Of a DNA stretch of 64,000 nucleotides, positions 9,485 to 13,563 are shown in pieces (position 1 is the first letter of the stretch; each line of letters begins with the position of its first letter). Location of the stretch: positions 991,189 through 1,055,188 of the forward strand of contig BPHJ01000001.1 in assembly GCA_026003475.1 (NCBI GenBank), written 5' to 3'. Source of the DNA: Candidatus Kapaibacterium sp. Lineage in GTDB: Bacteria; Bacteroidota; Ignavibacteria; Kapaibacteriales; NICIL-2. A program made the translations under genes and the position numbers. The notes under the pieces were generated by a model. That model saw only the letters and a list, made by a program, of their open reading frames with translations. It made no database searches and had not been told where the DNA came from.

Positions 9485-10900
9485 GTGTCAATCATCACAA
9501 TTGGGCTTCTCCTGATCAGCGTCGCTGCGGATGCAGCGCCGGTGGATAGTATCGTGCGCGTGCTGCGTCTATCGTCCCAGGAGCTGTTGCTTGTGACCAC
9601 GGGCGAATCTGTTCGTTACCGCGAAGACCTATCAGCACCTCCCAATCAGATTCGCATCGAGCTCAAGGGTGCACGCCCGGCTGATAGCATCCGCACCGTC
9701 ACTTTTGAGCAAGGCTCTGCCTTCACGTCGCTGTTCATTCAAAACAAAGCAGGAGGAGCACTGGCAATAATCGAGAGCAACAGGCAGCAGGGGCACGTCG
9801 TGGCACTATTGCCCTTTTCGAATGCGATCTACGTTCGGATGGTCAATTGGAACGACCTGCGGGATTGCTACTTGGGTTGGGGTATCGCTGCATGGGCTTC
9901 GGGTCAGTACACACAAGCGCTGCGACTATGGCGAACGGCTGCCACCCATGGTGCGTCGGAAGCGACACTCTGGCTTGGCATTGCAGAAGCACTCCAGCAA
10001 CACGAGACCCAAACCCTCGACTATCTCGAACCTCTTGCACAGCGCACCGACGTACTCCCCGATGTTCATGCTGCACTTGCTCGTGCATACACAGCCCGCA
10101 ACGAGGAGCAGCGCAGCCAACGCCACACACAAATTTTCACCCGCGCCATCGGACGGGCTCCACACTGGCCACCGGTGCTAACGATCGAATCGGAATCATC
10201 GGAGGGAAACACAGCTCCAAGCCTACTCGATGTATTCGAGCAGATCCAAGCACCCACTGCGGCACAATCATCGCCTTCGCCAATTGCGACGGAGAAACCA
10301 CCAGCGGATTCGGATCTTTTCGCACAGTTGCGCCAATTCCAACAACGCAACTCGCAAGCAACCTACACCGATGAACGTGACATGGGTTCCTCCCCCAGCG
10401 GTGGCTGGGCAATCCTGCTTGCAATCGGGTGTGCACTGTTGCTATCGGGGCTTGTCCTGCTGCGCAGTTACCGTCGTTGGAAATCCCATCGCATCGAAGC
10501 GATGGCACAGGCATTGGCTCGGCAGCAATCACCTCCAGCTCCGCCAACGCCGCCAGCGTCCCATCCTCCGACGACCTTCGACGAACTGGTTCGCTTCGAA
10601 TCCTCGCTGACCTCGGATAAAATGCAGCAGCAACCACCACCGCCTCCCGAAGAGAGCGAACCAGCACTCTTCGACTTTGATGAAGAAACATACCGTCAGC
10701 ATGAAGCACGCAAAGCAGCGTCTCCAATGTCGATTGACGAGCAGCTTCTCTACCAGTCCGAGGCCGATCTCCAGCTCAGCCAAGAATCACCTTCGGCTAT
10801 TGCACACGAACTTTCCGAACAAGAGCGCGATTTGCTCCGCATTCTCGAGCGTATCAGCAAGCAATATGACGATCACAGCAGAGACGGTGCTCGCACATAA
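9485..10900 (+). CDS. Membrane-anchored protein: AMIN-like domain, repeat region, one TM helix, acidic tail
   Basis: About 471 residues from a GTG start that opens a signal peptide (VSIITIGLLLISVAADAAPV). A beta-rich segment of about 90 residues follows, with an NQIRIELKGA-type strand resembling AMIN domains, which bind peptidoglycan or envelope partners. Next comes a helical region with a TPR-like CYLGWGIAAWASGQYTQALRLW pattern cut into pairs of helices. A single transmembrane helix (WAILLAIGCALLLSGLVLL) lies at about 306-326. The cytoplasmic tail is Pro-rich, acidic and Gln-rich with predicted helices at the end. The order recalls FimV-like polar organisers, but I see no LysM domain and claim no homology. 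The function is unknown. A longer start at 9437 is possible but would place an odd extension before the signal peptide. Confidence 0.7.
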   Translation: MSIITIGLLLISVAADAAPVDSIVRVLRLSSQELLLVTTGESVRYREDLSAPPNQIRIELKGARPADSIRTVTFEQGSAFTSLFIQNKAGGALAIIESNRQQGHVVALLPFSNAIYVRMVNWNDLRDCYLGWGIAAWASGQYTQALRLWRTAATHGASEATLWLGIAEALQQHETQTLDYLEPLAQRTDVLPDVHAALARAYTARNEEQRSQRHTQIFTRAIGRAPHWPPVLTIESESSEGNTAPSLLDVFEQIQAPTAAQSSPSPIATEKPPADSDLFAQLRQFQQRNSQATYTDERDMGSSPSGGWAILLAIGCALLLSGLVLLRSYRRWKSHRIEAMAQALARQQSPPAPPTPPASHPPTTFDELVRFESSLTSDKMQQQPPPPPEESEPALFDFDEETYRQHEARKAASPMSIDEQLLYQSEADLQLSQESPSAIAHELSEQERDLLRILERISKQYDDHSRDGART

Positions 10901-10936: not shown

Positions 10937-10969
10937 TCAAAGATTGCAAACCACCTCTGGAAAATGTCC

Positions 10970-11431
10970 ATGAACCGTTTCGCACCATGGTCATTTGTAC
11001 TTGCGGTTGTGATAGGTATCTCTGCTCCGAATGCAGAATGCACCTGCTGTGCTGCTGTTGCAATCGATCATGTGCAACGCAGTCCGAAGATCGCGTTAGC
11101 AACACCCCTGCTCCAAACCGCAAAACTCCCCAAACAACAACTCAACGACACGACGCGGAGGACATCACGGATTGTGGGAACATCCCTCGATGCAAGCAGT
11201 GACGTTCTTACCATTCGGATGGAGCTTGCCGAAAGCCAATCCTGGATGGAGGTCGCGCTGTTCAATATGCTGGGCAAGCGCGTCAAGGATATTTACCGTG
11301 GTCCAGCACAAGCGGATGATTCGGTACGGGATTTTTCGGCGACTGTAAGCGATCTGCCAAACGGACTCTACATTGTCTCCGTTCAGGGTTCAACGGTCCG
11401 TCTTGCCGACAAAGTGTTCATCTCTCGCTAA
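10970..11431 (+). CDS. Small secreted protein consisting mainly of a T9SS type A sorting domain
   Basis: 153 residues from ATG 10970 (ATG 10964 adds two). A signal peptide (MNRFAPWSFVLAVVIGIS) is followed by a Cys cluster, ECTCC. A short Gln/Lys-rich linker comes next, then a C-terminal beta-sandwich of about 75 residues. That part carries the hallmarks of the Por secretion (type IX) C-terminal sorting domain: MEVALFNMLGKRVKDIY, the LPNGLYIVSV strand and a terminal basic strand, DKVFISR. Normally this tail is attached to a large cargo; here almost nothing but the tail is present. It is 10 bases upstream of a PorV/PorQ-like gene and probably co-transcribed with it. The Cys cluster might allow lipidation or disulfide formation, which is inference. 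Confidence 0.78.
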   Translation: MNRFAPWSFVLAVVIGISAPNAECTCCAAVAIDHVQRSPKIALATPLLQTAKLPKQQLNDTTRRTSRIVGTSLDASSDVLTIRMELAESQSWMEVALFNMLGKRVKDIYRGPAQADDSVRDFSATVSDLPNGLYIVSVQGSTVRLADKVFISR

Positions 11432-11440
11432 GCAGTTATC

Positions 11441-12439
11441 GTGAAGGGATTCACCATCGCGGCTGCTCTGTTTCTCCTGAGCATTGGTGCGTTCTGCCAA
11501 GAAACCGCCACGCTGTTGCCATCGAGTTACGCGTATCGCCCTATCGGAGCGCGCGCTGCGGGATTGTCGGGTATGCAAGTTGCCTGCGCCGACGATCCTT
11601 CGGCGCTGTACACCAACCCAGCATGTCTTGGCTACCTGGTAGCACCGAATAGTTTGTTCGGAAGCATTACCCCACTCTCATTCGGACGATCCCTATCCAA
11701 CCTTGCAGCAACGCTCGCCGTCGGTACGAATGCTCACGTGGGGTTTGGTCTTGTTGCAATGAACGCAGGAACCATTACACGACGTGATGCAGCGGGCACT
11801 CTCCAAGGCACAAGTACACTCTGGCAAGGGACTGCTGCTGTCGCTGCTTCGTATATGCTCACTGATCAAAGCAGCGTCGGAGTCGCCGGGCGATTGCACA
11901 TTGCTTCGGCACCCGACCCGGCCTCCAGCGGCACTGGCATCGGTGTAGATATTGGTTACGTTACGTCGGTGCTGGGCATGGCAACTCTGGGCGCAAGTCT
12001 CCAAAATCTTGGTACGATGACAATCGGCTCCGAACGGTTTGCGCTCCCGTGGATGCTTCGCGTTGGCGTGTGTACAGTCATTCCCTTCGAGGAGCAAGTC
12101 GCAACGACGACATCGGCGACGCTTGGTACATCCGATACCATCGTGATCCCAAGCAGTGAATGCGTTCTTATTGGCATCGAAGCGCAGTACCGCGCACAAT
12201 CACCGACACCGACGCTGATTGTTGGCACCGAAATTATCCCCCATTCGTTGGTTGCTATCCGTGGTGGCATCGCAATCTATGGTGAGTCGCTCGGTGTGCC
12301 TCAGCTTATCCCTGGCACATTCTTCAGTGGCGGAGTCTCGCTTCACTTGCCATCAGCACTTCGCCTCGATTATGCGATTGCCCGCGGTGTGACAACGGCT
12401 CTTGTTCATACTCTCTCCATCGTAGCTCGGCTTGATTGA
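11441..12439 (+). CDS. PorV/PorQ-family outer-membrane beta-barrel
   Basis: 332 residues, GTG start, signal peptide ending at GAFCQ. The N-terminal segment RPIGARAAGLSGMQVACADDPSALYTNPACL is spread over residues 29-60 and is the family signature shared by PorV, PorQ and related FadL-like barrels. The rest alternates glycine-rich beta strands (VGFGLVAMNAG, IGVDIGYVTSVLG, FSGGVSLHLP) and ends in an aromatic-poor strand, VHTLSIVARLD. PorV and PorQ act in T9SS as carriers or parts of the attachment complex that binds sorting domains. Its position just after a mini-protein that is mostly sorting domain suggests the two interact. The stop overlaps the next start as TGATG. Confidence 0.85.
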   Translation: MKGFTIAAALFLLSIGAFCQETATLLPSSYAYRPIGARAAGLSGMQVACADDPSALYTNPACLGYLVAPNSLFGSITPLSFGRSLSNLAATLAVGTNAHVGFGLVAMNAGTITRRDAAGTLQGTSTLWQGTAAVAASYMLTDQSSVGVAGRLHIASAPDPASSGTGIGVDIGYVTSVLGMATLGASLQNLGTMTIGSERFALPWMLRVGVCTVIPFEEQVATTTSATLGTSDTIVIPSSECVLIGIEAQYRAQSPTPTLIVGTEIIPHSLVAIRGGIAIYGESLGVPQLIPGTFFSGGVSLHLPSALRLDYAIARGVTTALVHTLSIVARLD

Positions 12440-13563
12440 TGCGCCGCGTCGGTAGATGGACTTTGGGGTTGATCGTGTTCATCTTGAGCGTTCCCTACGC
12501 AGCGGCACCGATTTATTCAGTTGCACCGGCCAAACCACTGAGCGGCAACACGTGGTTCAATCCTTACGCAAATGCCAACGGTCAGTGGATCAAAGCAAAC
12601 GTCCACCTTCACACGCGCACGTGGTGGGGAGCGACCGATGGTCACAAAAATTCTCTCCGAGCCGTGGATTCTGTCTATCGAGCATTCGGCTATGGAGCAT
12701 TGGCGCTATCGAACTATCAACAGATCACAGAACTTGGGCAAAGCTGGAAACACCTTCCCTGCTACGAACACGGCTACAATATTCAGAAAACACATCAATT
12801 AGCTCTTGGTGCGCAATCGGTTATTTGGCTCGATTGTATCCTGCCCCAAACGCTTTTTGTCAAGCAGTGGATACTCGATGTGCTTCGTCCAACCTGCAGT
12901 GTCCTCATCGCAGCCCACCCAGCCTTTGGCCGCCCAAGCTACACAGCTGCTGAGATGGCGCACCTTGCCAATTACCATTGCATCGAGGTGTTCAACCACT
13001 ATCGCACCTCACTTGTGCATTGGGATTCGGCTCTCTCTGCGGGTATAGCTGTGTGGGCGGTCGGCAACGATGATTGCCACGATGTTTCCTCTGAGGGTGA
13101 GACAGGCGTCTGCCTGACGCTCCTCCCTGTACCACAGACGTGGAGTGCCAACGATCTATACCAGGCGTACCAGCAGGGCGCCACAATAGCTGTGCGTACC
13201 AGCCGTGGCCAGTTACCCATCGGCGTGCCTCACCAAATCCTTCGCAACGACTCGCTCATCATCGAACTCGATGGTATCGCCGATTCCGTGCGCTTTGTAA
13301 CGCATGGCGGAACAGAATTCTTTGTTGCCAAGCATTGCAGCCGCGCAGCCGCACCACTTTCGCTTGCTCGTGGATACCTTCGTGCTGAAGTGTACGCAGG
13401 CTCAACGCTCTATGCACTCAACCCAGTGATCCGCACGGAGGCGCACCACCTGACGCAGTACCGACGCCTGCACGAAGACGGACCGCTGACGATGCTTTAC
13501 CGAACGTTGTGGCTGCTGATCTACATTCGTGGAATTGTTCTTCTCCGAGGTCGCAAGCGCTAA
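12439..13563 (+). CDS. PHP-domain metal-dependent hydrolase, membrane-anchored
   Basis: About 374 residues. A hydrophobic N-terminus (LGLIVFILSVPYAAAPI) looks like a signal peptide or anchor, so the catalytic part is probably periplasmic. KANVHLHTRTW around residues 53-63 is PHP motif I with two His ligands. A histidine in LIAAHPAF near 160 and NDDCHD near 210 supply further metal-site residues. A C-terminal hydrophobic helix followed by basic residues (LLIYIRGIVLLRGRKR) would make a second anchor. PHP proteins hydrolyse phosphoesters; the substrate here is unknown. I start at ATG 12439, which overlaps the upstream stop, and the gene overlaps the next one as TAATG. Both overlaps imply coupled translation. 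Confidence 0.82.
   Translation: MRRVGRWTLGLIVFILSVPYAAAPIYSVAPAKPLSGNTWFNPYANANGQWIKANVHLHTRTWWGATDGHKNSLRAVDSVYRAFGYGALALSNYQQITELGQSWKHLPCYEHGYNIQKTHQLALGAQSVIWLDCILPQTLFVKQWILDVLRPTCSVLIAAHPAFGRPSYTAAEMAHLANYHCIEVFNHYRTSLVHWDSALSAGIAVWAVGNDDCHDVSSEGETGVCLTLLPVPQTWSANDLYQAYQQGATIAVRTSRGQLPIGVPHQILRNDSLIIELDGIADSVRFVTHGGTEFFVAKHCSRAAAPLSLARGYLRAEVYAGSTLYALNPVIRTEAHHLTQYRRLHEDGPLTMLYRTLWLLIYIRGIVLLRGRKR

Follow-up and report, generated by a model that had tools for sequence, protein, structure and literature searches.

A short type A-like sorting-domain protein and a PorV-family barrel form a conserved gene pair in Candidatus Kapabacteria and kin

The stretch of DNA analysed in this study (hereafter the window; G000:C1:991189-1055188, 64,000 nucleotides) is part of a Candidatus Kapaibacterium genome that consists of one contig of 2.16 Mb. 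Two adjacent genes are considered here. The first (10970..11431, + strand, stop codon TAA included) encodes a mini-protein of 153 aa, or of 155 aa if the alternative ATG at 10964 is taken as its start, and the second (11441..12439, + strand, stop included) encodes a 332-aa outer-membrane barrel of the PorV/PorQ family that begins with GTG. The TAA and the GTG are separated by 9 bases, not by the ten given in an earlier note on this DNA. From its N-terminus onwards, the mini-protein contains a hydrophobic stretch recognised by eye and presumed to be a Sec signal peptide (about residues 1-22; 10970..11035, +), a C-T-C-C cluster (residues 24-27; 11039..11050, +), a variable linker with a pLDDT below 50 (residues 28-59; 11051..11146, +), and a C-terminal sorting domain (CTD) of T9SS type A with seven strands (residues 60-153; 11147..11428, +), assigned from a match to Pfam PF18962 and from predicted strands.

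The gene upstream of the pair (9500..10900, +) combines a TPR model match with a transmembrane stretch and a long tail. The gene downstream (12439..13563, +), the ATG of which overlaps the barrel stop by one base, may encode a CehA/McbA-like metallohydrolase, its match being weak (27.2 bits, cut-off 80). Among the loci compared, strong matches to either neighbour are confined to the genus, and the TPR gene is therefore placed outside the conserved unit. A larger conserved operon was rejected for the three neighbour genes traced, none of which is constant. In other loci a cystathionine gamma-synthase-like gene, named by eye, follows: in f2 (L007-L014, L017) it comes after a CTD protein gene without a barrel, and in f5 and part of f9 it comes after the barrel. 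Scans for promoters and terminators gave results no better than those from shuffled sequences.

The C-terminus of the mini-protein matches PF18962 (Por_Secre_tail) with 27.3 bits, just above the gathering threshold of 27, and stays under the cut-offs of TIGR04183 (20.4 bits, cut-off 23) and CHU_C (12.5 bits, cut-off 27); TIGR04131 did not match the window pair in the model scan. The profile check that the earlier note had proposed for this tail, with TIGR04183 and TIGR04131, thus succeeds just over threshold with PF18962 and with neither of the two models it named. AlphaFold predicts a seven-stranded Ig-like sandwich (strands 67-74, 79-85, 93-98, 104-111, 119-125, 132-140, and 144-151) with a pLDDT mostly above 90, the fold matches of which include T9SS CTDs (6za2_A, Z 9.1; 8qb1_C, Z 8.9) alongside many other Ig-like folds with equal or higher Z. 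When 39 CTD proteins were aligned, about the last 94 residues could be aligned, the N-part being unalignable between families, and five positions were invariant: N99, L101, and K103 in the loop between strands 3 and 4, G132, and K148 near the C-terminus. A lysine near the C-terminus is described in PMC10994853 as a feature of T9SS type A CTDs, and the invariance of K148 over the 39 rows agrees with it. The reading of the 153-residue protein as the bearer of a type A sorting domain is thereby borne out. Synonymous change was unsaturated, and the dN/dS ratio of the CTD thus computable, in five of eight pairs; the values there are 0.04-0.19, and the CTD is under purifying selection.

The part that precedes the CTD looks different. 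Residues 13-60 have a pLDDT below 50 in the AlphaFold model and are probably disordered, and the remark in the earlier note that there is no room for a normal cargo holds. In the four computable pairs, dN/dS of the N-part is below 1; it is as low as that of the CTD in one of them, and the N-part is under weaker constraint than the CTD in the other three. A hydrophobic start is also present in the other rows of the alignment, for which starts were chosen partly for such a start. The cluster C24-T-C26-C27 to which attention had been drawn is present in the window protein and absent from five congeners and the rest of the 39 rows; as it is missing even in congeners, it is not part of the shared design, and its interpretation as a functional cluster was rejected. 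Lastly, the AlphaFold model of the CTD has no extra ribbon beyond the seven strands, such as PMC11285876 describes for PorU and PorZ, the CTDs of which are not cleaved, so that the mini-protein CTD might be cleaved as in normal cargo.

The window barrel matches the PorV/PorQ family model NF033709 with 83.6 bits (E 1.8e-23), under the curated cut-off of 90, which two of the three orthologous barrels scanned exceed (L066, 118.3 bits; L065, 108.7 bits; L067, 72.8 bits). The matches to the more specific PorQ and PorV models are far lower (NF033711, 47.3 bits, cut-off 220; NF033710, 30.3 bits, cut-off 250), and the PorP model gave no match for the window barrel in the model scan. Its best fold match in the PDB is 8gl6_F, which is PorV in the CTD-bound translocon (Z 33.1, rmsd 3.7, 283 residues aligned), followed by PorV 6h3i_F (Z 32.7), and a profile of 28 barrels finds the same PorV 6h3i_F in the PDB with E 1.1e-11. 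Fold and profile agree with an assignment to the PorV/PorQ family, with a family-model score somewhat under the cut-off.

In a first survey, each protein was searched in 61 genomes, the window genome included, and both were found at adjacent places in many of them. Related loci were searched for with six congeneric barrels as query, and the order as a whole was surveyed by profile searches over 123 genomes (E<=1e-40 for the barrel, E<=1e-12 for the CTD protein). The barrel family is present in 72 of these genomes, in one copy each (251-496 bits, the lowest scores being those of fragments); 105 genomes have the CTD protein. Of the 72 barrel genomes, 63 have the CTD gene immediately before the barrel gene on the same strand, with a median hit-to-hit gap of 24 bases; gene gaps are as small as 4-base overlaps, with starts picked by a heuristic. 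The nine others include three genomes of f4 (G010, G019, G026) in which a longer CTD protein with a head and a diverged CTD lies upstream and was missed by the profile, one (G006) in which the CTD gene lies upstream of a barrel that is split over two frames, one (G240) with a 408-aa upstream ORF the end of which reaches only 14.9 bits with the CTD profile, and one (G241) in which the CTD gene is on a different contig from the barrel; the remaining three (G032, G222, G239) showed no CTD gene immediately before the barrel. The pair is therefore real and conserved beyond chance neighbourhood, and it stays together far beyond the genus. A T9SS CTD model does match the tail and the two genes remain neighbours in most barrel genomes, so that neither of the outcomes that the earlier note had named as refuting its proposal was observed. 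Over the whole order some adjacent CTD proteins score just 56-75 bits and an unrelated-looking place without a barrel partner reaches 60, so the CTD score is not cleanly separated order-wide.

The pairing is not universal. At the cut-off used, a barrel of the pair family was not detected in 39 of the 105 genomes that have the CTD protein; 18 of these belong to f2, 8 to f7, and 7 to genus g22, which leaves 6 others, and draft gaps may contribute to these absences. Two of the five pairs with computable CTD dN/dS are f2 genomes without the barrel, and purifying selection acts there too, indicating that the CTD protein has a use without the pair barrel; it may then use the common PorV or another barrel. 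These 39 genomes count against an obligate pair, and the four barrel genomes without an adjacent CTD gene (G032, G222, G239, G241) weigh against a joint unit as well.

Beyond the order, 149 genomes drawn from the class were searched. The barrel profile gave 391-496 bits in the ten order genomes with the pair barrel and at most 134 bits elsewhere among the matches listed, and the CTD profile gave 113-163 bits in 22 order genomes and at most 54 bits at the other places listed. In f13, a family of another order, a short CTD gene lies upstream of a PorV-like barrel in all five genomes drawn. Four of these barrels score 127-135 bits with the barrel profile and, in a tree, fall together with the 31 barrels of the order (95/90), to the exclusion of seven further barrels, among which are the PorV and PorQ matches of the window genome. 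The branches of the three paralogues from that genome are long, which leaves their exact place unsure. The barrel of the fifth f13 genome (G082) reaches 81.5 bits, a value near that of the PorV of the window genome, and at 38-52 bits the f13 CTDs do not exceed what ordinary cargo CTDs attain. Since these latter scores are ordinary, it is the tree of the four barrels, and only this, that supports a common origin of the order and f13 pairs.

In the window genome, 67 CTD places reach E<=0.001; its PorV-family barrels at E<=0.1 number four, and the window barrel gives the weakest match among them. A PorU match over the cut-off at 782322 is followed by the best PorV-model match (785787; 248 bits, just under the cut-off of 250), the two spanning 782322-786758. 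The best PorQ-model match (1340246, - strand; 162.9 bits, below the cut-off of 220) is not adjacent to the PorZ match, which exceeds the cut-off (1560027, - strand; a candidate of 783 aa with PF21544). With PorU, PorZ, and the best PorV and PorQ matches located elsewhere, the pair is an extra unit, and its identity with any of these four was rejected. A substitution of PorZ/PorQ by the pair was likewise rejected, since 58 of the 61 genomes have PorZ and 59 have a PorQ-model match of at least 139 bits, which in 21 of them passes the cut-off. Weaker PorQ-model matches occur in 61 of 61 and mean little, because the model also matches other PorV-family barrels.

Some further loci of the window genome are recorded here. 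Another PorV-family barrel (G000:C1:724559-725506; 158 bits) has no CTD place within several kb among those listed for the genome. Short CTD proteins are also encoded elsewhere (L116, 1427-1933, 168 aa; L118, 1406-1888, 160 aa), with no PorV-family barrel nearby in the genome's barrel list. At L117 (G000:C1:1664300-1669800), three near-identical CTD protein genes of about 468 aa are neighbours, and two of the frames are interrupted.

The CTD proteins of the order come with or without a head. Among the 63 adjacent CTD frames, 58 are 102-260 aa long and five are 508-602 aa, and CTD proteins of f4, f8, f10, and part of f7 are extended at the N-terminus by about 400 residues, a propeller-like part that is homologous in the eight headed forms aligned. 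The best PDB profile match of this N-part is a BNR glycosyl hydrolase (3.8e-5), with 3ott (BT4663, in keeping with PMC8545088) reaching only 0.058. The link to PorZ is weak: hhalign gave 61% over 139 columns for one sequence only, and PF21544 did not match in the four headed forms scanned. On a tree that leaves out the barrel-less f7 CTD proteins and in which deep forks are little supported, one change at fewest explains gain or loss of the head, and the headless form would be derived from the headed one. As the head is absent in the window lineage and most others, these retain the CTD and the barrel. In f25 and f21, families of class relatives (L100, L109, L111, L114), an ORF of about 490-500 aa, by eye propeller-like and with an FlgD-like C-terminus, immediately precedes a PorV-family barrel, which may represent another form of headed pair.

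Several known systems resemble the pair in part. For Porphyromonas gingivalis, PMC5562754 describes subcomplexes in which PorQ holds PorZ and PorV holds PorU, and the PorZ CTD is not cleaved (PMC8545088). The likeness to PorZ:PorQ consists in a CTD-bearing surface protein with its own PorV-family barrel and, in the headed relatives, a propeller-like region joined to a CTD. However, PorZ has two propellers (PMC8545088), whereas the mini-protein has no propeller match and no folded N-part, and the window genome has the separate PorZ candidate and the better PorQ match given above. The PorU:PorV arrangement, in which a CTD gene precedes a PorV-family barrel gene (as at 782322-786758 in the same genome), differs in that PorU is a sortase of more than 1000 aa and the mini-protein lacks an enzyme part. 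PorA (PGN_0123) is likewise a small protein with a CTD; according to PMC7712824 its CTD binds PorV and the protein affects PorXY-SigP signalling, but it has a FimH-like N-domain where the mini-protein shows only the low-confidence residues 13-60. Lastly, the type B CTDs of Flavobacterium johnsoniae are linked to genes for cognate PorP/SprF-like carriers, as PMC12618676 describes; there too the CTD protein and a dedicated carrier barrel are encoded together, while the window pair combines a type A-like CTD with a PorV-like barrel and matches neither TIGR04131 nor PorP. The pair is a form of the known theme of CTD and carrier that appears to be new.

The order of the genes, in which that of a PorV-family barrel follows a conserved CTD gene, together with the optional nature of the head, is fitted best by a unit of CTD and carrier. 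By analogy with PorZ:PorQ and PorU:PorV, the pair may represent an extra T9SS surface unit consisting of a CTD protein and its own PorV-family carrier, a reading to which we assign a probability of about one half. The mini-protein would cross the inner membrane by Sec and leave through the T9SS translocon, and its CTD would stay on the extracellular loops of the barrel encoded by the neighbouring gene; the pair would most likely serve the attachment or exit machinery as an anchored accessory component and not act as a released effector. Export, CTD-barrel binding, surface location, and role are what we infer from the features above. An AlphaFold docking attempt, in which the two genes were fused as one chain with a mostly unpaired alignment, did not show docking (pTM 0.67, domains with pLDDT of about 95, no inter-domain error reported), and no docking claim is made from a pTM of this size without an inter-domain error. 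Inside the translocon of F. johnsoniae, the extracellular loops of PorV and SprA bind a type A CTD (PMC10994853); the contact at the periplasmic side of the barrel for which the earlier note had proposed a test is not the one known for T9SS CTDs. According to the same source, the hold of PorV on the CTD is expected to be weaker outside the translocon, and this counts against lasting binding unless the dedicated barrel differs.

The main rival is a dedicated substrate/shuttle pair, in which the short N-part would be the cargo of an ordinary small T9SS substrate (a peptide, an adhesin, or a cell-wall piece), delivered by its own shuttle, with the CTD cleaved or anchored. Cognate pairs of CTD and shuttle genes are known for type B CTDs, dN/dS of the N-part is below 1 in the computable pairs, other families have propeller-like cargo, and the seven-stranded CTD resembles a cleavable one. 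However, a pair driven by its cargo would be expected to conserve the N-part over the CTD, and here the reverse is found, the N-part being unaligned and probably disordered; moreover, type A CTDs are reported in PMC12618676 to share one PorV carrier. We therefore regard this explanation as possible but on the unlikely side. As for the dedicated unit that the earlier note had set against it, the pairing in 63 of 72 genomes and the distinctness from the genome's PorU, PorZ, PorV, and PorQ agree with it, and the roles of plug or regulator suggested there are unsupported; a dedicated unit is the reading favoured over an ordinary substrate with its shuttle, though it is not established.

A surface sensor or regulator that reports the state of the T9SS or the envelope, somewhat like PorA of P. 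gingivalis, would accord with the published regulatory role of a CTD protein and with the retention of the CTD protein in 39 genomes without a detected pair barrel. Yet PorA has a folded N-domain (PMC7712824) where the mini-protein shows none, and the three neighbour genes traced are neither constant nor matched to a regulator family, which makes such a role improbable. Nor do we give much credit to the barrel as a FadL-like transporter or a BAM/BamG-like scaffold with the CTD gene as a mere operon companion. FadL transporters match its fold at Z 30.8 and below and chains of the Bacteroidota BAM complex at Z 24-26, and BamG is described in PMC12611786 as a FadL-family protein that anchors a surface protein; PorV, however, is best by both profile and fold, the family-model match is to PorV/PorQ, and the order of CTD and barrel genes is retained in 63 of the 72 genomes. 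The existence of headed and headless forms of the same gene could also suggest the decayed remnant of a propeller protein, functionless today. This is scarcely credible and already contradicted by the low dN/dS of the CTD, the open frames, and the hydrophobic start kept in the aligned rows.

Within the preferred reading of a CTD protein with its own carrier, we tentatively propose that the passenger-free CTD, held by its own PorV-family barrel, is itself the working part, so that the pair would be a further fixed T9SS unit beside PorU:PorV and PorZ:PorQ. No publication on a pair of a bare CTD and a PorV-family barrel was found in a literature search with limited reach into subscription papers. 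The pair is small, with a CTD of 94 residues and a barrel precursor of 332 aa, and offers a natural system in which to ask how a PorV-family carrier holds a CTD away from the translocon and by what features a retained CTD differs from one that is cleaved, a question that PMC11285876, in the parts consulted, leaves open. T9SS CTDs are usually treated as export tags that serve a passenger. Here the tag is the sole conserved part of its gene, beside its own barrel across much of the order, which suggests that a tag can function alone. If the sorting domain is the working part, the unit would deliver no cargo in Candidatus Kapabacteria and kin and would instead occupy, cap, or pace the exit and attachment machinery.
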